From Bacteroidota bacterium (GTDB lineage Bacteria > Bacteroidota > Bacteroidia > UKL13-3): a DNA stretch of 36,322 bases. Within the stretch, counting starts at the first letter, position 1. Every line of letters begins with the position of its first letter. Below are positions 2,667-23,330 of this stretch, one piece after another. The translations under genes and the position numbers were made by a program. The stretch covers positions 1 to 36,322 of the forward strand of contig CANFHJ010000013.1 in assembly GCA_947446605.1 (NCBI GenBank), given 5' to 3'. A model generated the notes under the pieces. The model did no database searches. It worked only from the letters and a program-made list of their open reading frames with translations, and had not been told where the DNA came from.

Positions 2667-5600
2667 TTATTGTTCGGTCTGAACCAAACGAATGAACTGT
2701 GATTGCTCACCAATTTGAAGACGCACCAAATAAACTGCGGCAGCTGTTCCTGCTTGCTTAGCATCAAAAATAAATTCTGCCTTACCTGCATGTAAATCTG
2801 CTTTATTCACTATTGATTGTATTAATCTACCTGTTAAGTCAAATACTTCTAAATTAACCTTGGCAGGGGAATTTAAATTAAATGCTATTTTAGTTTGACC
2901 ACTAAATGGATTTGGTGTGGCAGTCATTCCAAAATTTGCCGCAAATAAATCTTGCAAACCAACTTGTGACATGTCTAAATCCATACTGCTATCACTTACA
3001 CATCCTGCTTTACTTACTGCATGCAATTGAATTGTATAAATTCCATTTAATGCATAAAAATGTGTAGGAACACCAAAGGTACTTGAATCGCCATCACCAA
3101 AATACCATTTGTAATTCATACCCGATTGCGCAGGATTTAAGGTAATTGCACCACCAGATTGGAACAATGAGAAATAAGCACTTGGCAAAGGATTTATTGT
3201 AACATTTCTTACTGCCACTGCCTTACATCCAGTTCCATTCATTGAATCAAGCAAATATATTCTTGCATTGCCACTTGTTGCCCAAGCCACTTGCACATTT
3301 GCTGTACCTTGTCCTGCAACTACTGAACCTCCTATTGGCGTCCACACATAAGTTCTGTTTGGATTATTAATAGTACCATAAGTAGCAATTGCATTGGCAC
3401 AAATTACATTTACACCAGAAATTAAGGCGGTAGGACTTACACCGATAGAAACCATGAATGGTAGTGTTTGAGATTTACAACCTGTTGCAATAACACTATC
3501 GCTTACAGAAACTGAACCTGTTCCTAAAGTACCCCACTGCACATCAATACTTGAGGTTCCTTGACCAATTAATATTGTTCCTCCAGTTACCATCCAAGTA
3601 TACACTCTACCTGTATTATTTGTTGTTGTATAAGTTGCAGTTGAATTTAAACAAACCGTACTAGAACCTGTAATAATTGGAGCAGGGCTAGCTACTATAC
3701 TAACTGTATATATTGGAGTTGTTGCAATACAGCCCGAACCAATTACAGAATCGCTCACAGTTAAAGTTCCGGTTCCAACGCCATTCCATAAAACATTTAT
3801 GTTATCTGTACCTTGTCCTGAAATAATTACCCCTCCGGTTATAGTCCACACATAAGCTCTACCAGTATTTGCTGGCGTTGTATATGCTTGGAAAGAACCA
3901 TCACAAACTGTGCTTGCACCTGAAATTACCGGAGTAGGATTTGGAATCAATAAAATTGTATAGGGTGCAGTAGTAGTTTTACATCCTCCAATATTATTTG
4001 AATCTGAAACAACTACGCTTCCAATACCAGCGGCACCCCAAGTAATTAATATATTTGGAGTTCCTTGTCCTGCAATTATATTTCCGCCTGTGGCAGTCCA
4101 AAAATAGGTTCGGCCTGGATTAAACGGAGTTGAGTAAGCTGCAGAACCAGTTGCACAAAGCGTGGTTGGTCCAGAAATTACAGGGTTTGGATCGGATTGG
4201 ATACTTACTGTTAAAACAGGAGAAATACCAATACAACTCGAACCATTTAAAGAGTCTTTTACTTGAACTGTTCCAACTCCCATTGCGGCCCAATTTACAT
4301 CAACGCTAGCAGTTCCTTGACCAAATACAATTGAACCACCAGAGATAGTCCAGGTATAGGTATGACCGCTTGCTGCAGCACAAGTATACGTTTTAACAGA
4401 GCCTGTGCAGACAGTATCTTTACCACTCACTATTGGCGTAGGAATAGGATTAATGCTAACACTCAAACTATTTGAAAATGTCTTACAACCAGTTGAATTA
4501 TTTGAATCGCTTACAACCAATGAACCTGTTCCTGGTGTTCCCCATGCAACAGTTACATTTGCCGTTCCAGCTCCTCCAGTAATAATACCACCGGTTATAG
4601 TCCAAACATAGGTTCTTCCATTATTAAATGGCGTGCTATAAGTTTTACTAGCGCCTTCACAAACATTTGCCGATCCAGAAACCACTGGGCTTGGATTAGC
4701 ATTTATAGTTACAAATAAATTAGAAGAAGTTGTTTTACAACCTGTGGCATTTATTGAATCTTTCACATTTACAGTTCCAAATCCTGCAGTATTCCAAGCA
4801 ACGGTTAAACTTGAAGTTCCTTGTCCTAAAACAATTGTACCATTGGTAACAGTCCAAATATAAGTTCTACCTAAGTTGGATGGTGTACTATATGTTTTAA
4901 CACTACCTACACAAGCAGCATTTGCACCAGTTACAACAGGTGTAGGATTTGCATTTATTGTAACAGCAAATGGAGCTGTAGTTATTTTACAAGAACTGGC
5001 ATTTATTGAATCACTTACCGTTAAGGTTCCTGAACCAACTGCACCCCAAGTAACACGAATACTATCTGTATTTTGACCAAAACCAATTACCCCACCACTG
5101 ATGGTCCAACGGTAACTATGACCAGCATTTTTAGGTGTTGTATAATAAGCAGTGCTATTGGCACAAACATTATTTAAACCTGAGATAACTGGTGAAGGTA
5201 AGGCATTTAATAGTACATCTATTTGTGGACTTATAGCTTTACAACCAGTAGCAATAGCTGAATCAAGTACCGTTAAGGTTCCCATTGGAATTCCTGTATT
5301 CCAGGTAACATTTATGCTTGATGTACCTTGACCAGAATTTATGACACCATTTGTTATTGTCCAAACATAATACCTGCCAATATTTGAAATTATTGAATAG
5401 GTTGCATTGCTGCTAGCACACATGGCAACAGGTCCTGTTATTATTGGATTTGGTAAAGGTAAAACTGCAACAGTTATACTTGGAGAAATTCCAATACAGC
5501 CACTTGTTGTATTTGAATCTTTTAAAGATACACTGCCAGAGCCCGCTACCGTCCAAGAAACTAAAATGCTTTCAGTACCTTGACCAGATAAGATAGTTCC

Positions 5601-8600
5601 ACCAGTTACCGTCCATTCGAAGGCATGTCCTAATGCCAAAGTTGTTTGGTAATAATTACTACTAGAAGCACAAACTGAATCTTTCCCTGTTACACCAGGT
5701 GTTGGAACCGCATTTATAAAAACATTAAATGGTAAAGTACTTCCTTTACATCCAGTAGCATTTATAGAATCTGTAAGCACCAAGGTTCCAGCTCCTGCTG
5801 CACCCCAAGTAACATAAACAGTATCTTTATTTTGTCCACCAGAAATAATACCACCAGTAACTGTCCAATGGTAAGACATGCCTGCAATACGATCTGTAGT
5901 AAACATGGTATTACTAGAAGCACAAACTTGGCTCGGACCATAAATTACTGGACTTGGCAGTGAGTTAATGGTAACAACTAAATTTGAGCTCTTGCCTTTG
6001 CAACCTGTAACATTTACGGAATCATAAACATTTAAGGTGCCAAAACTTACACCTACATTCCAGGTAACATTAATGGCACTTGTACCTTGTCCAGAAACAA
6101 TTACACCATTATTTACTGTCCACGTATAGGTATGGCCTGCCACTTGGAAGGTACTATAACTATAATTTGAGCCTGCACATGCATTGTTTGAACCAATTAC
6201 AAGCGGTGTAGGATTAGCCAAAACACGTACATTTAAAACACTTGAATTTCCTTTACAACCAGTAACAGTATTTGAATCGCTAACCGACATAGTGCGCAAA
6301 CCTGCAGTACTCCAGGAAACATAAATACTATCTGTTCCTTGACCAGTAATAATTGTTCCACCAGTTAAGGTCCATTGACAAGCATGTCCTGTGGCATTTG
6401 AAATTTTATAGGATTGAAAGCTTTGCGCACATACCGAGTCTTTTCCAATAATTACGGGACTTGGATTTGCATATATTGTAACATTATAAATAGCTGAAAC
6501 CGCAAAACATCCACTTGCATTTACAGAATCACTTACCTGCAATGTACCTATTCCCGCAGCTCCCCATGTTACATTAATACTATCTGTTGCTTGTCCGGAG
6601 GTAATGGTACCTCCAGTAATTACCCAATTATAGGTTCGACCCGAATTTTTTGGTGTTTTATAAATAGCACTTGTTCCGGCACAAAGTGCAATTCTTCCTG
6701 AAACGAATGGTGTTGGAATCTTATTAAGAATAACTAGGGTATTATCTGAACTTGGGCAACCAAATTGATCCAAAACCTGAACCGAATAGCTAATACTTTT
6801 CTTGGCATAAATAGCGGAGGTGGTTTCACCCGTGCTCCATAAATAGCTCGCATAATTTGACGTAACATCTAATACCACACTATCGCCGCAAACGGCAGTT
6901 GTATCATTTAGGTTTAATACATAAGGTGTACAAAAATTAAATCCAGAAATGGTATCTGAACCAAATGCATTAACAACAATAATATCTCCAGAGTTACCTG
7001 TACCAAGAGTAGCACTAATTAAGGTATCACCAGTTATGGTAAAACCAGCTGCAGGAAATCCGCCAAAACTTACAAAAGACGCTCCTGTGAAGTTAGTTCC
7101 TTTTATATATACAATTTTACCCACCCCAATTGAATTGGGTGAAAATGAAATTATGTTTGGCATAGCTATATAGGTGAATCCAGCAAGCGTAACTCCTCCA
7201 ACAGGAGTTTGAACAAATACATTACCACTTGCACCGGCTCCAACAACTGCTTTTATTAAATTAGGAGAATTCACCACATTGTAGGAAGATGCCGCAGCTC
7301 CAAAATTAACAATATTGGCTCCTGTTAAATTGGTTCCCGTAATTGTTATGGTATCACCCGTTTTAGCAATTTTAGGTGTGAAATTAGTTAATGTTGGATT
7401 TAGAGGTTTATCCCAATCTGCATAGGTGTACCAAGATTGTGCCCCAGAAATAAAATCTGCTGGCGTTTGGGTAGCTGCAGAATTATAAGCTGAAACGCCT
7501 ATACTATCAATATTCTCAAGAATGGATATTTTGCAGAAAGTATCGCTGGCAATATTTATTGATTTTGAAAATAAACCTGCAGAAGACCCTCCATAATAAA
7601 TTTTGTATCCAGCCAAATCCTCACCTGTTTTTCTATTCCAATAAACCAAAACAGAATCGCCAATAATGGCTTTTAAAGGTTGAATAACTGCTGAAATTGG
7701 GCAATCTAAACGAGGAGTTGTTTGGTAAGGAGTGAAGTTAATTTGACCTTGGTTTACATCATCCAAAATATCGTAAATAATTGCTTGAATAGCACCACTA
7801 GAAAGAGCTCCAGCTGTTTTCCAAAAGCAATTTTGAACTGGCGCAATAATGGTATTATCGTTATTCAACAACTGCATCATATAGGTAAAACCAGTATTAC
7901 TCATGAAATTATTTTCGATGGCACTTGAAGGATAAGTACCTTCAAATTTCACTAAACCTGTATTTGCGGCGCCTGATTTATTGTTAGAAAACGCATTACG
8001 ATTAATTGCTAAAGTATTAAAAGTACCTGTATAATTAAAAACTACAGGCGCGCTGTTATTGATATATTGATTGTGGTTATTGTATTGGTTCCTATTAACC
8101 TTTAAAATGTCAATGGTAGCAGTGTTATAGGCAAAAACATTTTTAGTAGCACTGTCCATTGCACCAAAAAATCCAGAACCATTGGTGCCAGAATTTCCAA
8201 AAATGAAATTCGAAGAAAGTGAACCACCACTTAAAGTTGAAATATTGGTAATTGAATAAACACCAGCACCACTGGTTGCAGTATTTTTAAAGATTTTATT
8301 GTTTAAAATTTTAGCACGACAATTATAATAAATACCTCCACCATTACCCGTTACGGAATTGTTGTTTTGGAAAATTTGGTTATTGGTAATTCTTGCAAAA
8401 AATGTACTGCTATTAATAATTGCAATACCCGCACCTGTATTTTTTGCTATCAAACAGCCATCAATTGTTGTAGCATTTGTGCTACTTTGTATATTGATAC
8501 CTGCAGCTGAGTTGGTATAACTACCTGTACTTGTACCCGCAGCACAATCATGCACATAGGTGTTTTTAATATAAACAGCACTGGTACCATTTTTTGAATA

Positions 8601-9128
8601 GATACCAGGATAGGCACCGAATCTAATTTCAGAATTAGTAATATAGGGAGATGCCAAGCCTGTTAAAGCAATAGATCCAAAAACACCACTTGTAACACTA
8701 CCCGCATATTCAATAATTACATTATTCACTATTGGTCCAGAAATATAATTGCCACTAGCATCTACTGAGGCAACACTTGAATTGGCTCCAAAAGAAATCC
8801 CTCCCCAATAACCTGCACTTGGACTGCTGGTATTTGCAGTAAAGGTAATGGGTGCAACTGCAGTTCCATTTGCCTTTAACTGGCCTAAAATCAACAAGCT
8901 CATATTTGCATTGAACTTAACAGTTACACCAGGGTTAATGGTTAGTATAAAGCCATTTGACATAACTAAATTTCCCGTAACAATATATGGACTACCTGCT
9001 AATGTTAAAGTGGAATCAGAGGTGAGCACACCGCTAATATTGGTTTGGGCAACGCTAAAAAATTGCTGTGCAATTAAAATTAGCATGATAGAAATACGAA
9101 CCATTGTTCTAGTAAATTTTGAATCCAT
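2667..9128 (-). CDS. Giant secreted multidomain protein: signal peptide, right-handed beta-helix, two IPT/TIG-like domains, Ig-like domain, 14 PKD-like repeats, PKD domain, T9SS type A sorting domain
   Basis: 2153 aa. N-terminal signal peptide (ISIMLILIAQQFFSVAQ). Repeated NN.I..N beta-helix motifs. IPT/TIG-like segments (NPTLTNFTPKIAKTGDTITITGTNLTGA; PNIISFSPNSIGVGKIVYIKGTNFTGA). Tandem PVISG...VC...TY.W.I.GG.I..GQGT..I.V.WG..G.G...V.DS....GCK repeats. PKD-like YKWYFGDGDSSTFGVPTHFYALNGIYTIQL. C-terminal MTATPNPFSGQTKIAFNL...VFDLTGRLIQS...YLVRL T9SS-type sorting domain. Confidence 0.9.
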   Translation of the reverse strand: MDSKFTRTMVRISIMLILIAQQFFSVAQTNISGVLTSDSTLTLAGSPYIVTGNLVMSNGFILTINPGVTVKFNANMSLLILGQLKANGTAVAPITFTANTSSPSAGYWGGISFGANSSVASVDASGNYISGPIVNNVIIEYAGSVTSGVFGSIALTGLASPYITNSEIRFGAYPGIYSKNGTSAVYIKNTYVHDCAAGTSTGSYTNSAAGINIQSSTNATTIDGCLIAKNTGAGIAIINSSTFFARITNNQIFQNNNSVTGNGGGIYYNCRAKILNNKIFKNTATSGAGVYSITNISTLSGGSLSSNFIFGNSGTNGSGFFGAMDSATKNVFAYNTATIDILKVNRNQYNNHNQYINNSAPVVFNYTGTFNTLAINRNAFSNNKSGAANTGLVKFEGTYPSSAIENNFMSNTGFTYMMQLLNNDNTIIAPVQNCFWKTAGALSSGAIQAIIYDILDDVNQGQINFTPYQTTPRLDCPISAVIQPLKAIIGDSVLVYWNRKTGEDLAGYKIYYGGSSAGLFSKSINIASDTFCKISILENIDSIGVSAYNSAATQTPADFISGAQSWYTYADWDKPLNPTLTNFTPKIAKTGDTITITGTNLTGANIVNFGAAASSYNVVNSPNLIKAVVGAGASGNVFVQTPVGGVTLAGFTYIAMPNIISFSPNSIGVGKIVYIKGTNFTGASFVSFGGFPAAGFTITGDTLISATLGTGNSGDIIVVNAFGSDTISGFNFCTPYVLNLNDTTAVCGDSVVLDVTSNYASYLWSTGETTSAIYAKKSISYSVQVLDQFGCPSSDNTLVILNKIPTPFVSGRIALCAGTSAIYKTPKNSGRTYNWVITGGTITSGQATDSINVTWGAAGIGTLQVSDSVNASGCFAVSAIYNVTIYANPSPVIIGKDSVCAQSFQSYKISNATGHACQWTLTGGTIITGQGTDSIYVSWSTAGLRTMSVSDSNTVTGCKGNSSVLNVRVLANPTPLVIGSNNACAGSNYSYSTFQVAGHTYTWTVNNGVIVSGQGTSAINVTWNVGVSFGTLNVYDSVNVTGCKGKSSNLVVTINSLPSPVIYGPSQVCASSNTMFTTDRIAGMSYHWTVTGGIISGGQNKDTVYVTWGAAGAGTLVLTDSINATGCKGSTLPFNVFINAVPTPGVTGKDSVCASSSNYYQTTLALGHAFEWTVTGGTILSGQGTESILVSWTVAGSGSVSLKDSNTTSGCIGISPSITVAVLPLPNPIITGPVAMCASSNATYSIISNIGRYYVWTITNGVINSGQGTSSINVTWNTGIPMGTLTVLDSAIATGCKAISPQIDVLLNALPSPVISGLNNVCANSTAYYTTPKNAGHSYRWTISGGVIGFGQNTDSIRVTWGAVGSGTLTVSDSINASSCKITTAPFAVTINANPTPVVTGANAACVGSVKTYSTPSNLGRTYIWTVTNGTIVLGQGTSSLTVAWNTAGFGTVNVKDSINATGCKTTSSNLFVTINANPSPVVSGSANVCEGASKTYSTPFNNGRTYVWTITGGIITGGAGTANVTVAWGTPGTGSLVVSDSNNSTGCKTFSNSLSVSINPIPTPIVSGKDTVCTGSVKTYTCAAASGHTYTWTISGGSIVFGQGTASVDVNWAAMGVGTVQVKDSLNGSSCIGISPVLTVSIQSDPNPVISGPTTLCATGSAAYSTPFNPGRTYFWTATGGNIIAGQGTPNILITWGAAGIGSVVVSDSNNIGGCKTTTAPYTILLIPNPTPVISGASTVCDGSFQAYTTPANTGRAYVWTITGGVIISGQGTDNINVLWNGVGTGTLTVSDSVIGSGCIATTPIYTVSIVASPAPIITGSSTVCLNSTATYTTTNNTGRVYTWMVTGGTILIGQGTSSIDVQWGTLGTGSVSVSDSVIATGCKSQTLPFMVSIGVSPTALISGVNVICANAIATYGTINNPNRTYVWTPIGGSVVAGQGTANVQVAWATSGNARIYLLDSMNGTGCKAVAVRNVTINPLPSAYFSLFQSGGAITLNPAQSGMNYKWYFGDGDSSTFGVPTHFYALNGIYTIQLHAVSKAGCVSDSSMDLDMSQVGLQDLFAANFGMTATPNPFSGQTKIAFNLNSPAKVNLEVFDLTGRLIQSIVNKADLHAGKAEFIFDAKQAGTAAAVYLVRLQIGEQSQFIRLVQTEQ
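3180..6710 (-). repeat. Tandem array of 14 protein-coding repeats, about 252 bp (84 aa) each
   Basis: Hand segmentation at the P(V/I)(I/V)SG boundary gives 14 units over 1177 codons, each with one Cys near the start (VCA/VCx) and one near the end (GCK/SCx). Confidence 0.9.
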
Positions 9129-13762: not shown

Positions 13763-13770
13763 TATATTTG
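13763..13770 (+). promoter_or_regulatory. Bacteroidota -7 box (TATATTTG) upstream of miaB
   Basis: Matches TAnnTTTG, 21 nt before the ATG at 13792. Confidence 0.4.
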
Positions 13771-13791: not shown

Positions 13792-15174
13792 ATGAAAGGT
13801 GTTACTTCAGAAAATAAGCCACTAACGGCAACCCGAAACCTCTATATTGAAACCTATGGTTGTGCTATGAACCTAGCCGACAGTGAAGTAGTTGCTTCCA
13901 TAATGGCCGATCAAAATTTCAAAACAACAAACATCATTGAGGAAGCTGATGTAATATTTGTCAATACCTGTTCCATCAGAGACAACGCAGAGGCGCATAT
14001 TTGGGGTCGTTTAAAAGAAATGCGCCCGCATAAAAGAAGTAAACCCAATATGATAATTGGTGTTTTGGGATGTATGGCCGAACGCTTAAAAACACAATTC
14101 TTAGAAAAAGAACAAATTATTGATTTGGTGGTTGGACCAGATGCCTACCGCGATATTCCCCAATTAATTGCCCAGGTGGAAGACGGTCAAAAGGCTGTAA
14201 ATACATTATTGTCGAGGGAAGAAACCTATGCCGAAATTTCTCCAGTTAGGCTAAGCACCAATGGCATTACGGCCTATATTAGTATTATGCGTGGTTGCGA
14301 TAACATGTGTACTTTTTGTGTTGTGCCATTTACACGTGGAAGAGAAAGAAGCAGATCTGCGGCATCTATTGTAAATGAAGCCCTTGACTTATACAGAGAT
14401 GGCTATAAAGAAGTTACCCTTTTAGGACAAAATGTAGATTCGTATAAAGAGCTTGATGATGCAGGAAATACCATTTGCACCTTTGCACAATTATTAGAAA
14501 AGGTGGCACAAATTGCACCAGACCTACGCTTGCGCTTCAGTAGCTCCCACCCAAAAGACATTACAGATGAGGTTTTGTATACCATGAAAAAATACAATAA
14601 TATCTGTAAACATATTCACTACCCTATTCAATCTGGAAATACCCGTGTATTGGAATTGATGAACCGAACCTACGACCATGAGTGGTTGAAAAAACGTTTG
14701 GATAAAATTAGGGAATTGATGCCCGATTGCGGTATTTCTACCGATTCTATTTCGGGATTTTGCACAGAAACAGAAGAAGAACACAAGGATACTTTAGAAC
14801 TTTTTAGGTATGGCCAATTTAACTTTGCCTATATGTATCAATACAGCGAACGCCCTGGCACATTGGCCTCAAGACGCTATCCTGATGATATTCCTGCCGA
14901 CGTAAAATTGAGACGCTTGCAAGAAATAATAACATTACAACATGAAAACAGCAAACGCATCAATGCTGCTTTAGAAGGAAAAATTGTTACTGTTTTAATT
15001 GAAGGCTTATCCAAAAAATCTGCCCATGATTTAAGAGGAAGAAGCGATCAAAATGCCATTGTAATTTTTCCGAAAGAACAATACGAAAAAGGCCAATACG
15101 TGAAAGTTAAAATAGAGAAAAGTACTATTACCAGTTTAATTGGAAAAGTAATTGAAGTGATACCACATCCATAA
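13792..15174 (+). CDS. miaB: tRNA-2-methylthio-N6-dimethylallyladenosine synthase MiaB
   Basis: [25 protein letters not shown], radical [35 protein letters not shown]-terminal TRAM-like region. Confidence 0.95.
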
Positions 15175-15176
15175 AA

Positions 15177-16472
15177 ATGAATGTCGACTTGTTTTCTACA
15201 CAATGGGAATCCTTCTTGTATGATTACCATTTATACTATAGGAATTTAGACCAAGAGGGCAAAAAACGCTTTATTAAAAGAGTGCAATCAATCCTCAAGA
15301 ACCTTGTTATTATTGGCAAAGAAGGACTTCAAGTTACAGAAGAAATTAAAATCTTAGTGGTAGCCAATTTGGTACAATTAACATTTGGATTAAAAAAATA
15401 TTGGCTTTATGGCTATGAATATATTTATCTCTATCCAGAAACTTTTTCATTGCCAAACCAAACAGAGGCTGTTGCAGGTTCAACCTACCAGCAAAAAATA
15501 ATTGCCCTCTCCTGGCGCAATTTTGCCATCGACCACTTAAAGGCAAATGATGGACATAATATCAGCTTATCCCAATATGCCTTAGGATTGGTTCAAACTG
15601 TATTAAATGGAAATAGCTACGATAGTAAATTTGGAAGTTATTTGGATACTTGGTTCGAAATAATAAATAAAGAAATTGGTCTTAAAACCAATAAAGACGG
15701 AATAGGGGGAATAGAATCGACTACTGAAAATTTAAAGCAAACCTTTGCCAAATGCGTAGAATTGTTTTTTGAAAAACCCGCCTTTTTTAAAAAAGAATTG
15801 CCTACCTCATACGCTCATTTTTGCTTATTGCTGAACCAAGACACTTTAAATATCAGCGAAAATTATGCTTACAATTGGGAGCGACAAAACAAAATAAACG
15901 TGTTGAGTCCATTGCCGAAGTTGATACCAATTCATTATAAATACAAGGATTGGCATTGGCTTTATAATCTTCCCTTTTTAGGTGTTTTTAGTACACCACT
16001 CCTTGTCTTTTACCTTACACAAAACTTATTGGTTCGAACCGAATATATTCTTTTGGTAATGTTTTTAGTGGGAAGTATTTTAGCCATTACCTTTTACAAA
16101 CCGCTAAGGCAAATATATTTATATAAAAATTTTGGATGGCTTTATTTAAGCGCTGTTCTTGGCTTTGGGCCAATTTTGGTGTGTGGATTATTATCAATCA
16201 ACCAAATTCATGGCTATGCATTTTCTGCCACTTATAGCAAACACCCTGTTGCAAGTTATTATTTAAAAGAAATGCCCAATAACCCGCAGGAGAAACAGGA
16301 AGTTGTATTTAACTTTAGTGACAATTTCTTAATTGATTTTCCAAAAGCAAGAACCTTTGATTTCAATTCACAACCCCTCACAAACAAACTGACATTTTTT
16401 AACGAAATAGGTTATGAAATACGCCATGGATTAATTGGCATACCTATTGTAACAAAAAGAGAATTATTTTAA
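15177..16472 (+). CDS. Membrane protein with an N-terminal MtfA/M90-like domain lacking HExxH (putative pseudopeptidase)
   Basis: IKILVVANLVQLTFGLKKYWLYGYEYIYLYPETF...IALSWRNF...DGHNISLSQYALGL...CVELFFEKPAFFKKELPTSYAHFCLLLNQD follows the MtfA order (IAa.A..L.....Y.....i.vYP..F ... LSW ... DGHN.v.HEFAH.LD ... SE.FFE.P..L....P.lY..L...y..D). C-terminal half has about 3 hydrophobic helices. Confidence 0.6.
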   Translation: MNVDLFSTQWESFLYDYHLYYRNLDQEGKKRFIKRVQSILKNLVIIGKEGLQVTEEIKILVVANLVQLTFGLKKYWLYGYEYIYLYPETFSLPNQTEAVAGSTYQQKIIALSWRNFAIDHLKANDGHNISLSQYALGLVQTVLNGNSYDSKFGSYLDTWFEIINKEIGLKTNKDGIGGIESTTENLKQTFAKCVELFFEKPAFFKKELPTSYAHFCLLLNQDTLNISENYAYNWERQNKINVLSPLPKLIPIHYKYKDWHWLYNLPFLGVFSTPLLVFYLTQNLLVRTEYILLVMFLVGSILAITFYKPLRQIYLYKNFGWLYLSAVLGFGPILVCGLLSINQIHGYAFSATYSKHPVASYYLKEMPNNPQEKQEVVFNFSDNFLIDFPKARTFDFNSQPLTNKLTFFNEIGYEIRHGLIGIPIVTKRELF

Positions 16473-16473
16473 T

Positions 16474-17712
16474 ATGAATCTACAAGACATAAAACAGCGA
16501 TTTGAAATCATAGGAAACTCCCCCCTATTGAATATTGCCCTAGAAACTGCTGTAAAAGTGGCAGCAACTGATATAACCGTTTTAATTAATGGAGAGAGTG
16601 GTGTGGGAAAAGAAGCTTTTTCAAAAATTATTCATGCCTTAAGCAACAGAAAACATGGTCCATTTATAGCTGTTAATTGCGGTGCAATTCCAGAAGGAAC
16701 AATAGACAGCGAACTATTTGGACATGAGAAAGGTTCTTTTACAGGCGCCCACGACACCCGCAAAGGCTATTTTGAAACCGTTAGTGGTGGCACTATTTTT
16801 CTTGATGAAATTGGAGAATTACCTTTAGAAACGCAAGCCAGGTTACTCCGAATTTTAGAAAGTGGAGAATTTATAAAAGTAGGTTCAAGCAAAGTTCAAA
16901 AAACGGATGTACGTATAGTAGCGGCAACCAATAAAGATTTAATGGAATTATCTTATAAGGGTAGATTTAGGGAAGACCTTTATTATAGGCTATCTACCGT
17001 TCCTATTAAAGTGCCTTCTTTAAGAGATCGTAAAGAAGATATTCATATATTATTTAGAAAATTTAGTGCGGATTTTGCAGAAAAATATCGCTCTAAACCT
17101 GTAACCTTAGAAGGTGATGCTTTGCAAATCTTACAGCATTATAGTTGGCCAGGTAATATTCGTCAGCTAAAAAACATTGCAGAACAACTTTCTGTTTTGG
17201 ATGAAGATAAAATTGTTAATGGCCCAGAACTTACTAGGGTATTACCTGCTGAAAAACCAGGATTACCAATGTTAATTGGCTCTCATGCACCAGAGCAACA
17301 ATTTAGTGAGCGCGATATTTTCTACAAGGTACTATATGATTTGCGCAAAGATTTAAGCGATTTGAAATCAATTGTTTTTGATCTAATGCAAGGTAACCAG
17401 GGAAACTCAAACAATGAGGGGGCCAAAAATTTCAGTAATAATTTTGTGCGAGAGGAAATGAATTCAAATACCAACAATAATAATTTTGTAAATATTCCAA
17501 CGCCAGTTAATACCTCCTCCAACAACCCTCAAATTATTGATATTACAGAGGCTCAAGCCGAACCTGAATCATTGAGTTTAGAAGACAAAGAAATAGAACT
17601 AATTAGAAAGAGTTTAAAGAAACACAATGGCAAACGCAAGAAAGCCGCGCAAGAATTGGGAATATCTGAACGAACCCTTTACAGAAAAATAAAACAATAC
17701 GACTTAGAATAA
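16474..17712 (+). CDS. Sigma54-dependent Fis-family transcriptional activator without an N-terminal sensor domain
   Basis: GESGVGKE Walker A, GSFTGA loop (variant of GAFTGA), GGTIFLDEIGELP Walker B, YYRLSTVPIKVPSLRDRKEDI, Fis HTH NGKRKKAAQELGISERTLYRKIKQY. Confidence 0.92.
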   Translation: MNLQDIKQRFEIIGNSPLLNIALETAVKVAATDITVLINGESGVGKEAFSKIIHALSNRKHGPFIAVNCGAIPEGTIDSELFGHEKGSFTGAHDTRKGYFETVSGGTIFLDEIGELPLETQARLLRILESGEFIKVGSSKVQKTDVRIVAATNKDLMELSYKGRFREDLYYRLSTVPIKVPSLRDRKEDIHILFRKFSADFAEKYRSKPVTLEGDALQILQHYSWPGNIRQLKNIAEQLSVLDEDKIVNGPELTRVLPAEKPGLPMLIGSHAPEQQFSERDIFYKVLYDLRKDLSDLKSIVFDLMQGNQGNSNNEGAKNFSNNFVREEMNSNTNNNNFVNIPTPVNTSSNNPQIIDITEAQAEPESLSLEDKEIELIRKSLKKHNGKRKKAAQELGISERTLYRKIKQYDLE

Positions 17713-17772: not shown

Positions 17773-20340
17773 TTAGTGCTTACATTCTTTTTTAGCTTCA
17801 CCTTCTGCGCAACATTTTCCTTTTGGAGCAGCATCCTCATGAGATTTCACACATTCAGCACCACAACTTTTGGTACAAGCTTCTGCAGACTCACATCCTT
17901 TTTTGCAATTATCTATACAAGCACCTGCTGCATTTGCATTGTGTTTGCTGCATGTTTTTGACTCCATAGAACAATCCATTTTACCTTTGCACATTTCTTT
18001 GCATTTGGCTTCATCAAACTTACCATCTGCTCCATACATGCTCATGCACATTTCTTTTTGCTCAGCTGAACAAGCATTGCTATCGCAATAAGCAGCACAT
18101 TCTTCTTTGGTCATGGTCATGCAACGACTTAAATCGCAGTTACCCATTTTAACGCCACAATGAGCAGATGCCATGGCATCACATTGTTCCATTTGGGCAC
18201 CGTCCATTTTACATTGACCTTTAGTCATACCACCTTCTACAGCAATGTAGGGTGCAATTACCAATGAAACAATAGACATTAATTTAATTAATATATTCAT
18301 TGAAGGACCAGAAGTATCTTTAAATGGATCACCAACTGTATCTCCAGTTACAGAAGCTTTATGTGGCTCAGATTTTTTGTAAAACATTTCGCCGTTGATC
18401 ATTACACCTTTTTCGAATGATTTCTTAGCATTATCCCAAGCACCACCAGCGTTTGATTGGAAAATACCCATCAATACACCACTTACAGTTACACCAGCTA
18501 ATAAACCTCCTAAAACTTCAGGACCAAATGTAAATCCAACAATTATTGGTGTAATTAGGGCAATAGCACCTGGCAACATCATTTCGCGAATAGATGCCTT
18601 AGTTGAAATAGCAACACATTTTTCGTATTCAGGTTTTGCTTTGTATTCCATAATACCAGGAATTTCGCGGAACTGACGACGAACTTCTTGTACCATATCC
18701 ATTGCAGCTTTACCTACCGCTTGAATACACAATGCTGAGAAAATAAATGGAATCATTCCACCTACAAATAAACCAGCCAAAACTGGTGCTTTGTAAATAT
18801 CAATTGCATCAATACCTGCAATACCAACGAAGGCAGCAAATAATGCCAATGAGGTTAATGCTGCAGAAGCAATTGCAAATCCTTTACCAGTTGCAGCGGT
18901 AGTATTACCAACAGCATCCAAATTATCTGTACGTTCACGAACTTCAGGAGGTAATTGACTCATTTCAGCAATACCACCTGCATTATCTGCAATGGGTCCA
19001 AATGCATCAATTGCTAATTGCATAGCAGTTGTTGCCATCATACCTGCAGCGGCAATTGCAACACCATATAAACCTGCAAAATGGTAAGATAACATAATAC
19101 CAGCAGCTAAAGTTAATACTGGAATTACTGTAGATTTCATACCTACAGATAAACCACCAATAATATTTGTAGCATGACCAGTAGAAGATTGTTGAATAAT
19201 AGACAATACAGGTGCTTTACCCATTGCAGTATAATATTCAGTTACAATACTCATAATAGCACCTACAACAGTACCAACTAGAATGGCATAGAATACACTC
19301 ATTTTTGTAAACTCATATCCACGTAGGCTTAAATTTTCAGGCAACATCCAGTTTACAATAAAATAAGAAGCGGCCACAGTTAACAACATAGACGACCAGT
19401 TACCAAGGTTCAATGCATTTTGTACACTAGATTTATCATCTTTAATAGTAACGAACCAAGTACCTACGATAGAGAATAATATACCTAGACCACAAATGAT
19501 CATTGGCAATAAAATGGGAGATAAACCACCAAAATTATCAGTCACTATAATTTCTTGTCCCAAAACCATGGTAGCAAGAATGGTAGCAACGTATGAACCA
19601 AATAAATCGGCACCCATACCAGCAACGTCGCCCACGTTATCACCTACGTTATCTGCAATAGTAGCAGGGTTACGTACATCATCTTCAGGAATACCTGCTT
19701 CTACCTTACCCACTAAATCTGCGCCAACATCGGCAGCTTTGGTATAAATACCACCACCCACACGGGCAAACAAGGCAATAGACTCAGCTCCTAAAGAGAA
19801 GCCTGTTAATACCTCGATGGCAGTTTTAACTGTATCGGTGCCTAAATCAGCAAAATAAGTTAAGAAAGCAATAAACAAGCCTCCTAAACCTAAAACGGCT
19901 AAACCAGCAACGCCTAAGCCCATAACTGTTCCACCAGTAAAAGAAACTTTTAGAGCTTGTTTTAAACTGGTACGCGCAGCTTGTGTGGTTCTAACGTTGG
20001 CTTTGGTAGCCACTTTCATTCCAATATATCCGGCAGTTGCAGAGAATACTGCACCAATAATAAATGCGATAGAAATAACCCAACTAGAATGGATTGGTTT
20101 TCCATTAATTTCATGAATGGTTCCTGAATAAGCCAATAATGCAGCAGCAAATGTTACAAAGATGCCCAATACTTTCCATTCAGCTTTTAAGAAGGCCATA
20201 GCACCATCTGCTATGTAACCAGCTAGTTCTTGCATTTTAGCATCACCAGCGTCTTGCTTAGAAACCCAAGCACTTTTAATGGCCATTACAATGAGGCCAA
20301 CTACCCCTAGGGCAGGAACTAGATAAATCAATTGCGTCAT
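17773..20340 (-). CDS. hppA: Membrane-bound (K+-dependent type) ion-pumping pyrophosphatase with a Cys-rich C-terminal extension
   Basis: [77 protein letters not shown] (Ala of the K+-dependent class), [50 protein letters not shown], then the Cys-rich tail. Confidence 0.95.
17776..18234 (-). other. Cys/Met/Lys-rich C-terminal tail of the pyrophosphatase (153 aa, 22 Cys)
   Basis: [12 protein letters not shown]...[58 protein letters not shown]...[23 protein letters not shown]...[15 protein letters not shown]; in frame with the catalytic domain. Confidence 0.9.
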
Positions 20341-20484: not shown

Positions 20485-21312
20485 ATGAAACCCCACATTT
20501 TACCCCTTTTAGCTTTCTTGCTTTGGCAAGATGCATCTCAAGCTCAATTAATTGGCCGAAGCTATGGCGCAAAGCCTTTGGCATTGGGCGGAATAAGCAG
20601 CCTAAGCGATAATGGATTTGAAACAATTAACAATCCAGCCTTACTCGCAAATGGAGCAGAAAACAGCGTATCGCTATTTCAAGAAACCCCATACCTGCAA
20701 AAGGATTTAGGCGTTTCTGGAATAAGTTACCAAAGAAAAAACACTAATTTCTCCCAAGGGATTTGTCTTATTCAATCTGGCAATTCCTATTTCAAACAAC
20801 AACTCTTAGCGTTTGCCCTCGCAAAAAAATTAAGTGAGCACCTTTATTTAGGGGCTGCATTGCATTACCAAGTTAGCTACCAATTTCAATTGCAAACACA
20901 ATATAATTTAATGGGAGCCTTGGGATTGCTATTGCACTTAAAGAAAAATTGGACATTTTCTTCCTGTATTCTTAACTTAAATGCCGCTCGTAATCACTTA
21001 AAAATTGAGCCTAGCCCAATTACAGTAATGCGTTTTGGGTGCGCCTACAAGGTAAACGACAATCTCAATTTTCTAGCTGAGCAAGAACAAATTCTAGGCA
21101 GCCAAGGTCAATTAAAATTGGGCATGAGTATTCGGTTCGACCCAAAATTTGACCTTTACCTTGGATTGAACAAAAGTGCCCAGTTATATAGTTTTGCTTG
21201 TAGTTACCAAACAAAAAAAACGCGCAGTATAGTTGGCGCAAGTGTGCATGCTGTATTAGGAATTAGCCCATATATTGAATTTCAGTATTTACCCTTTAGC
21301 AGTAAAAAATAA
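20485..21312 (+). CDS. Putative outer-membrane beta-barrel protein (PorV/PorQ-like)
   Basis: Signal peptide; RSYGAKPLALGGISSLSDNGFETINNPALLA is the typical GA.alGga......d.....NPA.la opening of this family; alternating amphipathic strands. Confidence 0.6.
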   Translation: MKPHILPLLAFLLWQDASQAQLIGRSYGAKPLALGGISSLSDNGFETINNPALLANGAENSVSLFQETPYLQKDLGVSGISYQRKNTNFSQGICLIQSGNSYFKQQLLAFALAKKLSEHLYLGAALHYQVSYQFQLQTQYNLMGALGLLLHLKKNWTFSSCILNLNAARNHLKIEPSPITVMRFGCAYKVNDNLNFLAEQEQILGSQGQLKLGMSIRFDPKFDLYLGLNKSAQLYSFACSYQTKKTRSIVGASVHAVLGISPYIEFQYLPFSSKK

Positions 21313-23330
21313 TGCGCTTTTTATTTCTTATACAACTCAGTTTAATTACACAATTGTTGTTTTCCCAAAACATTGATGTGCCTAAAAAGTGGATCAAAGA
21401 GCAAGTGGTTATTTTATGTGAAAACCAAAGTATGGCTATAGATCAAAGCGACTTGGAAATGAACATGAATGAATGGCTTGAAAACCCATTAATACTGAAT
21501 AAAACTGATTTTTTTGAAATCAATAAATTCCTTTTCTTAAATCAGAATCAAAAGGCAAACCTATTACAACACCTAAAAAAATATGGTCCATTTTTAGACC
21601 AATATGAGCTGCAAGCTATTGAAGGTTTTGATGAAAAAACGGCGCAATTATTGAGTTATTTTGTAATTATTGACGAACGCAATGGGATTGATTATTACTC
21701 TTTGAAAGAGATACTCAAAAACGGCAAAAACGAACTCATACTTGGTTTGGATCAAAACTTCCAAAAAAGTAAAGGCTATGAGGCCCCAGAACAATTTGTT
21801 GGTTCGAACCAACGCATTGCCTTGCGGTACAGATTTGCATTGGCCAACAAACTATATTTTGGCTGTAGTTTTGAAAAAGATGCTGGAGAAAGCTGGGGAA
21901 CTATTGGAGATTTTCAAGGATTTCACTTCGTTTATAAAGGCAAAGGGCTTTTACAAACCCTTGCGCTTGGCGATTACCAAGCAAATTTTGGAAAAGGTTT
22001 GTCCATAGGCAGTTCTATGTTTAATGGTAAATCAGCTCTGGTATTTCAAAATCAATATTTAAATGAGGGAATAAAAGCCTACCGTTCCTTAAATGAAAGC
22101 GGATTTTTTAGAGGCATTGCCATTGGTTTAAAGAAAAATCATTTCAATTTTCATGTGATGGCAAGCTTACTCCCACAAAGTGCATTGGTAAAATATGACA
22201 GCCTATTGCAAGAGGATAAAATTGGCAATATCATAGCAAGTGGCTTGCATAGAACACAACTTGAAATAGCTAAAAAGAATAGTGTTTATAAAACCTTTTT
22301 TGGCATTCAAATTACCTATCAAAAAAAGAAATTACAACTTGGTGCCAGTTATAATAAACAAGAAAATAGTAGCAATTCTAAATTAGAAAGTGATTTCAAA
22401 AACTGGCAAAACCCTATATTAAACAGCCATCTTGGGCTATCTGGTAATTATTACCTAAACAATATCTTAATAGGTACCGAATTATCTTTTATGGGGAATG
22501 GAGAACAGGGCATAATTGCAAATGCATTAATTCCCCTAAATGCCAAATTGGATGCCATGTGCATTCACAGAAATTTCAGCAAAGCCTTTGAAAACAATTA
22601 CGGAAATGTTTGGAGCGCAAACAGCAGTATTGGCAATGAAAAAGGAACCTATATGGCATTTAGTTACCGACCAAAGAAATACCACCAAATAGATTTCTAT
22701 ACGGATGTATTTAAAACAAGTGGCCCAAGTTATCAAGCGGCCTATGCCAATTTAAGCAAGGATTATTTTGTGCATTATACTTGGCAACAATCAAAAACAT
22801 TTCAGATTGAAATGAGGTACAGACAACAAGAAACAGAAAAAAACATACCATCAGAAATGAGTAAAACAAAAATATTAGTACCAGAAACACGCAGCCAATT
22901 CAGGTTTCAGGCAAATTACAGTATTAATAAAGCGTGGACCTACCAATTTAGGGCAGAGAAAATTATAGCACAAAAAACAGATGGTATAAAATATGCAGGA
23001 CAATTAATTTTCCATGATTTAAACTACCATCCAAAAGGAGAAAAAATGAGTTTACATGCCAGGTTTTGCATCTTTCAGATTGAAGATTTTTGCGCCCGAA
23101 TTTACATGCAAGAAGGGGATGTAATTTATAATTACGCGCAAACACAATTAAATGGAAATGGCTATCGTACCTATTTAATTGCGGGATATAGGATCGGCAA
23201 AAAGACACAACTACAAATTAAAATTGCACAAACCTATTTACCAGAAAAATTAGAAATAGGAAGTGGCTTAGACCAAACCAAAGGTCCTTTTCAAAGTGAA
23301 GGAAAAATTCAATTGTTTATGAAGTTCTAA
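21312..23330 (+). CDS. Helix-hairpin-helix protein with C-terminal outer-membrane beta-barrel
   Basis: Signal peptide; ENPLILNKTDFFEINKFLFLNQNQKANLLQHLKKYGPFLDQYELQAIEGFDEKTAQLLSYFVI is a double HHH; the remainder is alternating barrel-like strands ending in a terminal Phe (IQLFMKF). ATG overlaps the upstream stop (TAATG). Confidence 0.75.
   Translation: MRFLFLIQLSLITQLLFSQNIDVPKKWIKEQVVILCENQSMAIDQSDLEMNMNEWLENPLILNKTDFFEINKFLFLNQNQKANLLQHLKKYGPFLDQYELQAIEGFDEKTAQLLSYFVIIDERNGIDYYSLKEILKNGKNELILGLDQNFQKSKGYEAPEQFVGSNQRIALRYRFALANKLYFGCSFEKDAGESWGTIGDFQGFHFVYKGKGLLQTLALGDYQANFGKGLSIGSSMFNGKSALVFQNQYLNEGIKAYRSLNESGFFRGIAIGLKKNHFNFHVMASLLPQSALVKYDSLLQEDKIGNIIASGLHRTQLEIAKKNSVYKTFFGIQITYQKKKLQLGASYNKQENSSNSKLESDFKNWQNPILNSHLGLSGNYYLNNILIGTELSFMGNGEQGIIANALIPLNAKLDAMCIHRNFSKAFENNYGNVWSANSSIGNEKGTYMAFSYRPKKYHQIDFYTDVFKTSGPSYQAAYANLSKDYFVHYTWQQSKTFQIEMRYRQQETEKNIPSEMSKTKILVPETRSQFRFQANYSINKAWTYQFRAEKIIAQKTDGIKYAGQLIFHDLNYHPKGEKMSLHARFCIFQIEDFCARIYMQEGDVIYNYAQTQLNGNGYRTYLIAGYRIGKKTQLQIKIAQTYLPEKLEIGSGLDQTKGPFQSEGKIQLFMKF
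21798..21813. repeat. Perfect 16-bp palindrome GTTGGTTCGAACCAAC (copy of the recurrent GGTTCGAACC motif)
   Basis: Direct reading; other exact 10-bp cores at 16031-16040 and 33748-33757. Confidence 0.9.

Follow-up and report, generated by a model that had tools for sequence, protein, structure and literature searches.

An M90-fold protein with a degenerate peptidase site, encoded between miaB and a sigma54-dependent activator gene in Bacteroidota

What use can be made of a peptidase fold once its peptidase site is gone, and what might such a protein do beside a transcriptional activator? The question is raised by an ATG-initiated open reading frame on the plus strand of a 36,322-nucleotide stretch of Bacteroidota DNA (the window, meaning the whole stretch analysed). 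This gene, at positions 15177-16472, encodes a protein of 431 residues (P0001), here called the pseudo-M90 protein. It starts 2 nt past the stop codon of miaB (13792-15174, plus strand), the first gene of the operon, which encodes a 460-residue tRNA methylthiotransferase with UPF0004, Radical_SAM and TRAM domains. Only 1 nt separates its own stop codon from the gene of a 412-residue sigma54-dependent activator (16474-17712, plus strand), in which the Sigma54_activat (AAA+) domain already begins at residue 12, leaving no N-terminal sensor domain. The activator has kept its GSFTGA loop (residues 87-92) and carries an HTH_8 domain (residues 369-409); sigma54 itself (rpoN) is encoded in the genome of the window. 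The -7 element of Bacteroidota promoters has the consensus TAnnTTTG, and a putative promoter of the miaB operon that fits it, TATATTTG, was read by eye at 13763-13770 (plus strand). A scan of the window for sigma54 promoters with up to two mismatches gave 34 matches where 23 were expected, none of them in front of miaB. As a separate observation on the whole genome (G000), the sigma54 promoter pattern TGGCAC-N5-TTGCW, one mismatch being allowed, has 134 occurrences, as compared with 27 for the reversed control.

The first part of the protein belongs to the M90 peptidases. Residues 6-215 (15192-15821) match Peptidase_M90 (PF06167) with E=1.1e-18 and a score of 68.2 bits (cut-off 26.2), and the solved MtfA chains 9srw and 3dl1 are retrieved from the sequence alone with E values of about 6e-4. 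An AlphaFold model of the 431-residue protein, for which the input consisted of 21 sequences from the window and the genomes, has a mean pLDDT of 77. When the model was compared with the PDB using Foldseek, Klebsiella MtfA (3khi and 3dl1) was found with E=5.8e-7 and 1.2e-6, a probability of 1.00 and TM scores of 0.71-0.73 on the target. No other PDB entry was matched below E=0.001, so that the fold match is not a chance one. The MtfA/M90 fold proposed in the preliminary description is thus borne out, and the protein shares with MtfA (Mlc titration factor A, YeeI) the fold, the core and the order of the landmarks. It does not reach the MtfA orthology group PRK15410 (32 bits against an NCBI equivalog cut-off of 400), and a link to Mlc or to glucose transport belongs, on present evidence, to MtfA alone.

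The second part of the protein had been described as a membrane domain followed by an exposed tail, and the model agrees with this view. Three membrane helices are predicted from the secondary structure of the model and from hydropathy (residues 261-280, 288-312 and 319-344; 15957-16208). They precede a beta-rich C-terminal tail (residues 352-430; 16230-16466) that is predicted to be extracytoplasmic. From the positive charges of the loop that follows helix 2, the M90 domain would face the cytoplasm and the tail the exterior. The tail gave no match in a fold search of the PDB below E=0.001, and no Pfam family was obtained for it when tail-bearing proteins were run against Pfam. Helices and tail are shared with active long M90 proteins of Bacteroidota (L020-L023, L138, L140), which have the whole architecture of the pseudo-M90 protein, including a WHW stretch. 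These active proteins differ in that they keep HExxH, Tyr and Glu, often carry an N-terminal membrane helix and are not found beside miaB. Since the membrane and tail module is present on active M90s elsewhere, its role in signalling or at the membrane would predate the miaB locus. The same module also occurs as a separate small gene, assigned to no Pfam family, at 2781-3359 of L027, directly following an active M90 gene, and at 1710-2300 of L179.

The catalytic residues of MtfA were assigned from a review, which gives HExxH together with a Glu and a Tyr arranged in a Y-x6-E motif (PMC6356308), and from the E. coli MtfA sequence. In the alignment, H148, E149, H152, Y204 and E211 of E. coli MtfA correspond to S132, Q133, L136, S181 and Q188 of the window protein. 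The SQYAL stretch (residues 132-136; 15570-15584, plus strand) aligns column for column with the HExxH of the relatives, and the preliminary description was therefore right to place the motif there and to regard both metal-binding His and the catalytic Glu as lost. It had located the third zinc ligand in VELFFEKP, and this must be corrected: the Glu of VELFFE is E195, which aligns to MtfA E218, is kept in active and in nearly all dead copies and probably has a structural role. The ligand column is that of Q188 (15738-15740), where Glu is found in 71 of 71 active relatives. S181 (15717-15719) stands in place of the catalytic Tyr, in a gappy loop where the column is less certain. As the third ligand and the catalytic Tyr are replaced too, the site is more fully lost than was first thought. 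The 71 active relatives all have H132, E133, H136 and E188, and 68 of them keep R179, Y181 and N185. In the dead clade, by comparison, H136 is gone from every member and the other three survive in few: H132 in L016 alone, E133 in L018 and L042, and E188 in L009, L011 and L018. None of the 27 copies linked to miaB has HExxH, which answers the earlier suggestion that miaB-linked orthologues be searched for it. Two outcomes that were named beforehand as telling against the assignment, the absence of an MtfA fold and an HExxH column lying elsewhere in the protein, were both tested and neither occurred. Judged from its sequence, the window protein is almost certainly a pseudoenzyme, in which the M90 fold is retained and the peptidase site is lost. 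It departs from MtfA in the loss of all five catalytic residues and in its fusion to three membrane helices and a tail.

The same condition is found well beyond the window. An M90 match was obtained in 36 of the 64 genomes of the window's family, and dead copies occur in five genera, with SQYAL or AQYAL in g1, AEMGL, KELSY or YHHAE in g2, YQLGM in g5, HQLAL in g6 and YHFAQ in g7, plus minor variants. The relatives named are metagenome genomes of uncultured Bacteroidota. A class-wide search gave an M90 match in 137 of 395 genomes; the sequences fetched were taken from the better-scoring matches rather than at random, and among those read HExxH is absent, outside the dead clade, only from L169 and L195. 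Both belong to other families, and miaB was not found beside either of them. L169 (383-1690, plus strand) has YGLAH for HExxH with Tyr and Glu kept, and L195 (243-1676, plus strand), on a very long branch, has MEWTS. When the motif columns were left out of a tree of the M90 domain, the 27 miaB-linked dead copies grouped together (SH-aLRT 97), and a more careful tree, built from 69 sequences after removal of the catalytic columns, supports the dead-copy clade at 100/100.

Genome position follows the same division. Wherever the neighbours of a dead copy can be read (L046-L066, L074-L080), miaB precedes it and a sigma54 activator gene follows, all three in the same orientation, and this holds for divergent members of 31-40% identity as well; in L077, about 1.5 kb of extra DNA follows miaB, and the stretch ends within the activator gene. 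Neither miaB nor a sigma54 activator was seen beside other M90s at 93 loci, some of which overlap and many of which have short flanks. In relatives devoid of the pseudo-M90 gene, miaB is directly followed by the activator, an arrangement not seen in L100-L103. The activator thus still adjoins miaB where the pseudo-M90 gene is absent, and does not need it. On the tree of MiaB and the activator, the presence of the gene requires 8 changes, which fits one gain followed by repeated loss, transfer being also possible; repeated loss means that the protein is dispensable. In the scenario that may be envisaged, a protease of the long M90 form found in Bacteroidota, with its M90 domain, three membrane helices and extracytoplasmic tail, would have entered the slot between miaB and the activator once, and its catalytic site would have been lost.

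Repeated losses among relatives could be taken as the mark of a functionless gene in decay, but this idea is scarcely credible. Pairwise dN/dS values, from which several pairs saturated at silent sites were left out, are 0.05-0.18 for the pseudo-M90 protein, as compared with 0.02-0.07 for MiaB and 0.004-0.06 for the activator. Every pair that could be measured falls far short of 1, and the two halves of the protein each give low values, the top value for a single segment being 0.23. The dead copies listed contain no internal stop codons, and the gene is intact over a wide divergence. Decay is ruled out by these values and by the intact reading frames, and purifying selection supports a retained, non-catalytic role. 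It is also quite improbable that the protein is still an enzyme, using another metal site or another chemistry in the old cleft. Such an activity would be in line with a set of residues conserved specifically in the clade (K107, H120, Q133, T141, N144, S154 and D157), but the old catalytic positions vary freely across the motifs listed above, and no new constant set of His, Cys, Asp or Glu appears in the alignment. A further notion, slightly less probable still, is that the protein acts on an active M90 paralogue as a decoy or dominant-negative partner, by competition for substrate or in a mixed complex. Some genomes do combine a dead copy with an active HEFAH paralogue (G003, G005, G013, G034, G067, G069 and G080). 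No active M90 accompanies the dead copy in the genome of the window (84.5% complete) or in many relatives with a completeness of 96-99%, and as a general role the decoy is ruled out by these many carriers.

It is then plausible that the dead M90 scaffold serves as a binding or sensing module, as had been suggested. The reading that we favour, tentatively and with a little less than even confidence, is that the protein is anchored in the membrane as a pseudopeptidase and binds a partner without cutting it, the partner being most likely the adjacent sigma54 activator. The M90 domain would be located in the cytoplasm and bound to this sensorless activator, which would be tethered or released by the pseudo-M90 protein on a signal read by the membrane and tail part. 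The partner is suggested by the position in the operon and by analogy with MtfA, the known partner of which is a transcription factor, the repressor Mlc; PDB entry 9srw, where MtfA is found together with Mlc, provides a solved complex between an M90 protein and a transcription factor. Two facts given above count against this reading: the activator keeps its place beside miaB in genomes without the pseudo-M90 gene, and the gene has repeatedly been lost. In a more specific and rather unlikely version, the M90 fold, having lost catalysis a single time, would have become established in Bacteroidota as the transmembrane sensing half of a new sigma54 switch, the tail reading an envelope signal and the M90 domain holding or releasing the activator. 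A quite different partnership is possible, if somewhat doubtful: the pseudopeptidase would bind peptides or membrane proteins as an adaptor or chaperone, in the manner of inactive rhomboids, and the operon would reflect co-expression only, the activator being irrelevant. Fold, catalytic loss and selection are explained equally well in this way, and the occurrence of the membrane and tail module on active M90s elsewhere speaks in the same sense. So does a comparison of activator residues with the presence or absence of the pseudo-M90 gene, which revealed no covariation beyond a variable linker. Against such independence from the activator, an operon position held across the whole clade, its divergent members included, seems to be more than chance co-expression needs.

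Control of the activator by the pseudo-M90 protein would have a precedent in PspA and PspF, where a membrane-linked protein controls in trans a sigma54 activator lacking its own sensor (PMC3791423). The likeness is one of analogy: PspA is a coiled-coil protein, unlike the pseudo-M90 protein, and the patch of PspF on which PspA docks, made of Y51, L52 and W56 (PMC3791423), is absent from the window activator, where A, L and K are found and the loop reads HALSNRKHGPFI. As this docking patch is missing, any contact with the pseudo-M90 protein would have to differ. If control by the pseudo-M90 protein does take place, the latter may be regarded as a candidate input for a sigma54 activator without a sensor of its own.

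Protease folds that remain under selection with their active site replaced are known among inactive zincins and other pseudoproteases, such as inactive ADAMs and CLCA members (PMC3650047) and iRhoms (PMC6451368). These resemble the pseudo-M90 protein in that respect but belong to families other than M90. For PF06167, a 2013 survey reported HExxH in 100% of the members (PMC3650047), and a literature search covering open-licence papers found no paper on an inactive M90 clade. As far as these sources show, M90 would have had no described pseudoenzyme clade before the present one. Moreover, since the catalytic loss coincides with one change of genome position, the clade is a clean natural experiment on the ability of the M90 fold to bind regulators without cutting them.

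Other genes of the window may be mentioned. Two adjoining open reading frames on the plus strand (20485-21312 and 21312-23330), of 275 and 672 residues, have no Pfam match. On the minus strand, positions 2667-9128 encode a protein of 2153 residues that contains about 14 PKD-like domains and ends in a secretion-system sorting domain. Downstream of the activator, also on the minus strand (17773-20340), lies the gene of an 855-residue integral-membrane protein that, from its sequence, resembles an ion-pumping pyrophosphatase. Its C-terminal extension abounds in Cys, Met and His, with 22 Cys among the last 150 residues; this extension is possibly metal-binding and is also found in the relatives L046, L048-L051 and L059.
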